34,753 nt of DNA. Origin: Gemmatimonadales bacterium. GTDB lineage: Bacteria; Gemmatimonadota; Gemmatimonadetes; Gemmatimonadales; GWC2-71-9. Below are positions 1,154 through 5,378 of this stretch, piece by piece. The notes below the pieces were generated by a model. The model ran no database searches and was not told where the DNA came from. It was given only the letters and a program-made list of their open reading frames with translations. The stretch covers positions 1 to 34,753 of the forward strand of contig JAICVB010000003.1 of NCBI GenBank assembly GCA_025935545.1. The letters run 5' to 3'. Position 1 is the first letter of the stretch; every line of letters starts with the position of its first letter. Both the position numbers and the translations under genes were made by a program.

Positions 1154-1250
1154 GCCTCAGGTCCGAAGGGCGCCGGCGCGCGAACCGCGTCAGGACCTTG
1201 CCGGTAGCAGCGCTAAGCGATGCCCGGTGTCGCTTCGGGTAGCCTGAGGC
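1154..1250 (+). ncRNA. ffs: Bacterial small signal recognition particle RNA (4.5S-like)
   Basis: Terminal helix GCCTCAGG (1154-1161) / CCTGAGGC (1243-1250) plus CCGAAG/CTTCGG. Conserved core ACCGCGTCAGG...AGCAGCGCTAAGCGA resembles the domain IV CAGG/AGCA symmetric loop. Located directly upstream of dnaX, as in many bacteria. Confidence 0.88.
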
Positions 1251-1274
1251 ACTTCTCTTTTCCCCTGCCGCCCC

Positions 1275-3921: not shown

Positions 3922-4190
3922 TGGGCGCCCGCACCCGGGTCTTCGTCGGCGCGGCGGCGGCGGGCGTCGTGGGTGGATGGGTCTTCGCCCAGCGGCGGCT
4001 GGTGCACCACCGGCGCGACCTCTTCAGTCCCCGGCCGCTCCGCCGCCTCGCGGCGCTGGGCTTTCTCGCCGGGCAGACCGGGATCGAGACCGTCCGGCTG
4101 CTCCGCGACTACCTGGCGTGGGAGACGCGCCCCATGCTCCGCCGCCGCGCGCTCGGCATCGTGCGCCGGATGGAAGCCAGTCTCGGCTGA
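3921..4190 (+). CDS. Small hypothetical protein with N-terminal hydrophobic segment
   Basis: MGARTRVFVGAAAAGVVGGWVFAQRRLVHHRRDLFSPRPLRRLAALGFLAG...; start overlaps the recR stop (TGATG); fits the colinear gene string. Confidence 0.7.
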   Translation: MGARTRVFVGAAAAGVVGGWVFAQRRLVHHRRDLFSPRPLRRLAALGFLAGQTGIETVRLLRDYLAWETRPMLRRRALGIVRRMEASLG

Positions 4191-4194
4191 CCGG

Positions 4195-4689
4195 ATGACA
4201 TCGGGCGCTTCGAGCTGGTCGTTCGGCGAGGAGGACGCCCGCCGGATCGACGGCATCCTGACCGGCTTCCTGCGGGAATCCAGCGCGCGCACCGCGCTGA
4301 TCGTGGATCGCACCGGCCAGCTCGTCGCCACCGCGGGCGAGCCGCCGGCGTTCGATCCGACCGCCTTCGCGTCGCTCACCGCCGCCGACTTCAGCGCCAA
4401 CGACCAGCTGGCCCGCATGCTGGGCGAGCCCGAGTTCGGGGCGCTCTTCCACCAGGGTGAGCGGGAGTCGATGTATCTCGCCGACATCGCGCGGCGGGTG
4501 ATCCTGGTGGTGCTGTTCGACAACCGGACCACGCTCGGACTGGTCAAGCTGCGCGTCCGCGCGACGGTGCAGGATCTCACCAAGGTGTTTACCGAGATGT
4601 TCGGCAGGACCCGGACCGACGCGCCCCGGGTGGAAAGCGGTTTTCTGGGCGACGCGGAAGACGAAATCGACAAACTCTTCGGAGCCTGA
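4195..4689 (+). CDS. Roadblock/LC7 domain protein (MglB-like)
   Basis: [16 protein letters not shown]...[11 protein letters not shown]...[30 protein letters not shown] resembles the roadblock/LC7 fold family; followed by an MglA-like GTPase. Confidence 0.85.
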
Positions 4690-4703
4690 GGAACCCCCCG
4701 CCC

Positions 4704-5378
4704 ATGTCGATGATCAACTACGCGTCCCGCGAGATCAACTGCAAGCTCGTGTACTACGGGCCCGGCCTCGGCGGCAAGACGACCAACCTCGAGTTCGTCT
4801 ACAACAAGGTGGCGCCCGGCTCCCGGGGGAAGATGATCTCCCTCGCGACCGAGACGGAGCGCACCCTCTTCTTCGACTTCCTGCCGGTGGATCTGGGCAC
4901 CATCCGCGGCTTCAAGGTCAAGTTCCACCTCTACACGGTGCCGGGGCAGGTGTATTACAACGCCTCGCGGAAGCTGATCCTCAAGGGCGTGGACGGCGTC
5001 GTGTTCGTGGCCGACAGCCAGCTCGAGCGGATGGAAGCCAACATCGAGGCGATGCAGAACCTGTACGACAACATGGCCCAGCATGGCTACGACCTGACCC
5101 GCCTCCCGTTCGCCATCCAGTACAACAAGCGCGACCTCCCGAACGCGGCCCCCATCGCGGAGCTGCAGGCCGCGCTCAATCCCGGCTGGGTGGTGGAGGA
5201 TCCGGCGCGCCAGCGCGTGCTGGCCGATGCCGAGCATCCCGGGGAGTTCCTGGTGAGCCAGCAGGACGGGCAGTGGATCGAGCGCGCTCCCTACTACGAG
5301 GCAGTCGCGGTGACGGGCGAAGGCGTGTTCGACACCCTCAAGGCCATCAGCAAGACCGTCGTCAAGACGCTGGGATAG
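4704..5378 (+). CDS. MglA-like small Ras-superfamily GTPase (gliding/polarity type)
   Basis: [69 protein letters not shown] (NKRD) closely match the MglA family. Confidence 0.93.

Follow-up and report, generated by a model that had tools for sequence, protein, structure and literature searches.

A UUGCC apical pentaloop in place of the GNRA tetraloop in an SRP RNA, and the range of such loops in Gemmatimonadota

The SRP RNA is an ordinary bacterial RNA that aids the delivery of new membrane proteins to the cell membrane. Its tip is regarded as highly conserved, and the contact between this tetraloop and FtsY is under exploration as an antibacterial target. The window analysed here, a stretch of 34,753 nucleotides, holds an SRP RNA gene with the tip UUGCC, which raises the question of whether this loop is an anomaly of one genome, a sign of altered receptor docking or a five-base form of the usual structure. 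We favour the last, with a probability of about 0.68: UUGCC would be a class-typical pentaloop with a GNRA/UMAC-like turn, carried by a functional, sole SRP RNA with a normal, 4.5S-like way of working.

Positions 1155–1252 of the window (plus strand) matched the bacterial small SRP RNA family (RF00169, Bacteria_small_SRP) in cmscan with 43.5 bits and E = 2.6e-6, over the full model (1–97) and above the cut-off of 40 bits, and the alignment placed five bases at the tip where the model has four. The symmetric internal-loop core of the family, GUCAGG...AGCAGC, is present; the GGAA/GNRA apical tetraloop, which is typical of RF00169 and not required by it, is replaced by UUGCC, with the family cut-off still passed. 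The tip spans 1189–1211 and reads GTCAGG-ACC-TTGCC-GGT-AGCAGC: GUCAGG (1189–1194) and AGCAGC (1206–1211) are the 5′ and 3′ strands of the Ffh-binding symmetric loop region, with CAGG and AGCA invariant in the 30 aligned relatives, and ACC (1195–1197) pairs with GGU (1203–1205) as the apical stem, which closes UUGCC (1198–1202) as the terminal loop in the RNAfold structure. The minimum free energy of the RNA was −52.5 kcal/mol (z = −3.0), a stability equalled by none of 200 shuffled sequences. Compensatory changes were found at 13 of the 23 consensus pairs across 30 relatives, and the outermost pair of the apical stem varies among A-U, G-C, C-G and U-A, in support of a five-base loop closed by three pairs. 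The first-pass annotation, which had read an SRP RNA with a recognisable core and a UUGCC tip, is thus borne out by sequence, cmscan and RNAfold; its coordinates of 1189–1210 located the tip and missed the last base of AGCAGC, at 1211. A terminator-like hairpin with a T-rich tail, a consensus match only, lies at the 3′ end of the RNA (1232–1259, plus strand), with an eight-pair stem at 1232–1250 and 0.2 such hairpins expected by chance in the region scanned.

The gene lies between a gene for a YihY-like membrane protein and dnaX-ybaB-recR, the gene names having been read from the open reading frames; in Bacillus subtilis, too, the SRP RNA gene is known to be placed before dnaX. Downstream of recR (4190–5378), a roadblock-like open reading frame with its end at 4689 and a frame for an MglA-like small GTPase at 4704–5378, before a pgsA-like gene, were identified by eye. 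Ffh and FtsY are both encoded in the source genome. A second, canonical SRP RNA elsewhere, which the first-pass annotation had named as evidence against its reading, was not found in this assembly, which is 66.9% complete. The sister species has two SRP RNA copies (G001:C143:24-121 and G001:C187:21-118), each at a contig end, and they are probably one gene at an assembly break. A sequencing error was rejected as the origin of the loop, since the sister species in the genus has the same 23-mer, as do genomes that were assembled independently. That the locus is an assembly error or an SRP RNA pseudogene, as might be suspected in a fragmented, 67% complete genome, is very improbable, for the identical tip occurs in the sister species and in many independent assemblies, and the core is intact, with compensatory pairs and a position before dnaX.

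Pattern and model searches within the phylum gave readable tips in 242 genomes of 108 genera. The wide pattern GTCAGG..AGCAGC, which had several chance matches per genome, was narrowed by adding the CC/GG stem, and the loop tally was compiled by hand, phylum genomes matching neither pattern nor model being left out. These searches, covariance model and phylum-wide look-up alike, had been proposed by the first-pass annotation, and beside the RF00169 match they gave pentaloops in 205 genomes and tetraloops in 37, numbers that describe Gemmatimonadota only and do not permit a claim that pentaloops are unique to the phylum. The pentaloops comprise CCGCA (65), CCGAA (46), UCGCC (33), GUGAA (24), UUGCC (14) and GUGCA (11), with small numbers each of CCGCC, GCGAA, UCGCA, CUGCA, CUGCC, CCGUA and GCGCA, and the tetraloops are GAAA (16), GGAA (11), GAGA (3), UAAC (3), UAGC (2) and GGCA (2). 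In the larger class, 205 of 236 surveyed genomes have a pentaloop, so the suggestion that the lineage tolerates a different loop is supported, the pentaloop being the majority state. In the other class (f11), all six genomes surveyed carry the canonical GGAA tetraloop, so that GGAA is probably the ancestral loop and the pentaloop arose within the larger class. Two families contain UUGCC and the closely similar UCGCC. A scan for UYGCC tips with GTCAGGACCTYGCCGGTAGCAGC, taking one genome per species across about 85,000 species, gave 55 exact matches, all named as Gemmatimonadota/Gemmatimonadetes, Gemmatimonadales or Longimicrobiales. The UUGCC tip thus belongs to a variant form of a known RNA that extends across the class, and is no anomaly of one genome. 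It had been held against the novelty of the loop that it might already be documented as standard for the phylum: a pentaloop is standard in fact, but a partial literature search, which permits no claim of priority, found no published description of SRP RNA pentaloops, or of SRP RNA tetraloops in Gemmatimonadetes. Eight genomes of 87–95% completeness had no RF00169 match at E 0.01 (G177, G179, G185 and G203 of family f9, and G131, G136, G168 and G257), and their SRP RNA may have diverged beyond the model.

Position 3 is G in all 205 pentaloops, position 2 is always C or U, and position 1 is never A. Among 101 genus-by-loop types the end bases are C..A in 51, U..C in 26, G..A in 20, C..C in three and U..A in one, so that 97 are of the C..A, G..A or U..C kind. 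There is coupling between positions 1 and 5, with a mutual information of 0.64 bit versus 0.015 when shuffled, and none of 2000 shuffles reached 0.64, a significance that is overstated because the shuffles ignore relatedness and genera are not independent. Several genera of family f2, and separately one genome of f5, have CGC-CAGG...AGCA-ACG in place of CGU-CAGG...AGCA-GCG in the core below the loop (L006:1501-1596, L009, L016, L017, L182-L187, L189, L190, L193, L194 and L196). Both members of the U.G pair beside the symmetric loop are thereby changed, to C.A, which is possibly an isosteric C.A+ wobble; most of these loci have GAAA tetraloops, and L193 and L196 have CCGCA.

The history of the loop was read on a maximum-likelihood tree built from the concatenated Ffh and FtsY sequences of 29 genomes, with family f5 not in the tree. 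Loop length requires at least six changes and the last loop base one, while the end pair changes four times, against a minimum of two, and none of 200 shuffles was as low. The U..C-ended genomes form one clade (SH-aLRT 97) that unites UUGCC and UCGCC pentaloops with UAAC and UAGC tetraloops, and GAGA and GGAA tetraloops are placed among GUGAA and GUGCA pentaloops. Length thus changes and the ends stay, as if one base enters or leaves the loop with the closing mismatch largely kept. Family f5 also has U..C ends, which looks like a second origin; one genus of that family, g72, has CCGCA, CCGCC, CUGCC, UCGCC and UUGCC. The repeated changes of length, together with nine genera that each contain more than one loop, are what would be expected under relaxed constraint, in which the apical loop of this class would be unimportant for FtsY docking and would drift near-neutrally, the internal loops and the distal site being sufficient. 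This is unlikely, since the loops in use are a very small part of the 1024 possible pentaloops, with G at position 3, a pyrimidine at position 2 and coupled ends, and the FtsY contact lysine is kept in 29 of 29 proteins.

In E. coli, FtsY first docks on the SRP RNA at its loop (PMC4737761, PMC5454536), and contacts the 4.5S loop via a basic patch of K399, R402, K405 and K406 (PMC11404819). The tetraloop is important there for the binding of FtsY, and UUCG is used as a control loop that does not bind it. Given this role of the tetraloop, a changed loop could weaken FtsY docking. The patch was compared in the FtsY of the source genome (C32, over the TIGR00064 cut-off) and of 28 relatives. The equivalent of K399 is K in 29 of 29 whatever the loop, that of R402 is R in 28, and position 406 is K or R in 28; wherever the RNA-binding motif of the Ffh M domain was extracted it is canonical, reading GSGRSVQEVNQLL in the source genome. 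No co-variation with the loop was seen at the basic patch across the 29 proteins, and as these three positions are kept whatever the loop, the suggestion that Ffh and FtsY have co-varied finds no support at the known tetraloop-contact residues. It could still be argued that the pentaloop has a different shape, to which FtsY or Ffh has changed elsewhere on the contact surface, and K405 is indeed replaced in all 29 FtsY proteins (mostly by G, A or S); species whose loops are GGAA, GAAA or GAGA have this replacement too, and with K399, R402 and 406 retained regardless of the loop, such co-evolved docking seems quite unlikely. Docking of FtsY in a different manner by a constrained pentaloop that replaces the near-universal tetraloop, e.g. 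with the looped-out base making a new protein contact, is doubtful; if true, it would give co-translational targeting an alternative mode of docking that occurs in nature.

For the preferred reading of a shape-conserving loop, we infer the three-dimensional fold and normal docking function from the patterns above. The two internal loops would serve as binding sites of the Ffh M domain, and FtsY would first dock with its basic patch (K399/R402/K406) on the apical loop. In the pentaloop a GNRA/UMAC-like turn would be preserved by looping out one base, most likely that at position 4; the closing mismatch would consist of the two end bases of the loop (G..A, C..A or U..C), and the invariant G at position 3 would be the purine of the turn. 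FtsY would then read backbone shape rather than letters, so that the loop could drift in length and sequence without loss of the protein contact. Published work documents GNRA-like pentaloops in which one base is looped out, and UMAC loops that have the same fold without being GNRA (PMC12550061), and in these classes the relatives' GUGAA and GUGCA fit G-N-R-(N)-A and their UAAC is a UMAC loop. UUGCC matches none of GNRA, UMAC and GNR(N)A by letter, whereas the relatives' GUGAA, GUGCA, GAGA and UAAC do; the C..A-ended loops match no named GNRA-like class, and the CCC-rich forms may instead pair out of register, leaving a tetraloop and one bulged C. The analogy makes UUGCC most probably a GNRA/UMAC-like loop with U..C ends and one extra base, its GNRA-type U-turn being putative. 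To call the loop non-GNRA, as the first reading did, is accurate by letter, but the pattern in relatives, with its invariant G at position 3, coupled end bases and changes between four and five bases that keep the ends, points to a turn of the GNRA-like kind that holds one more base instead of an unrelated loop.

A class with a usual five-base tip, repeated conversion between four and five bases and fixed receptor residues is a natural experiment on whether FtsY recognises the letters of the loop, its length or the shape of the backbone. Compared with the bacterial small SRP RNA of E. coli (4.5S RNA, ffs; RF00169), the RNA of the window shares the hairpin with both Ffh-binding internal loops and a score above the family cut-off, and differs in its pentaloop: the tip is GUCAGG-UCC-GGAA-GGA-AGCAGC in E. 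coli and GUCAGG-ACC-UUGCC-GGU-AGCAGC here. The boxB RNAs of phages P22 and lambda preserve a GNRA-type turn in a loop of five bases by looping out one of them (PMC12550061). The chloroplast SRP RNA of Physcomitrella patens likewise departs from the tetraloop (PMC5115805); it has a loop of about ten bases, binds cpSRP54 weakly and belongs to a plastid, whereas the loop described here is longer by a single base and the Ffh/FtsY system is conserved.
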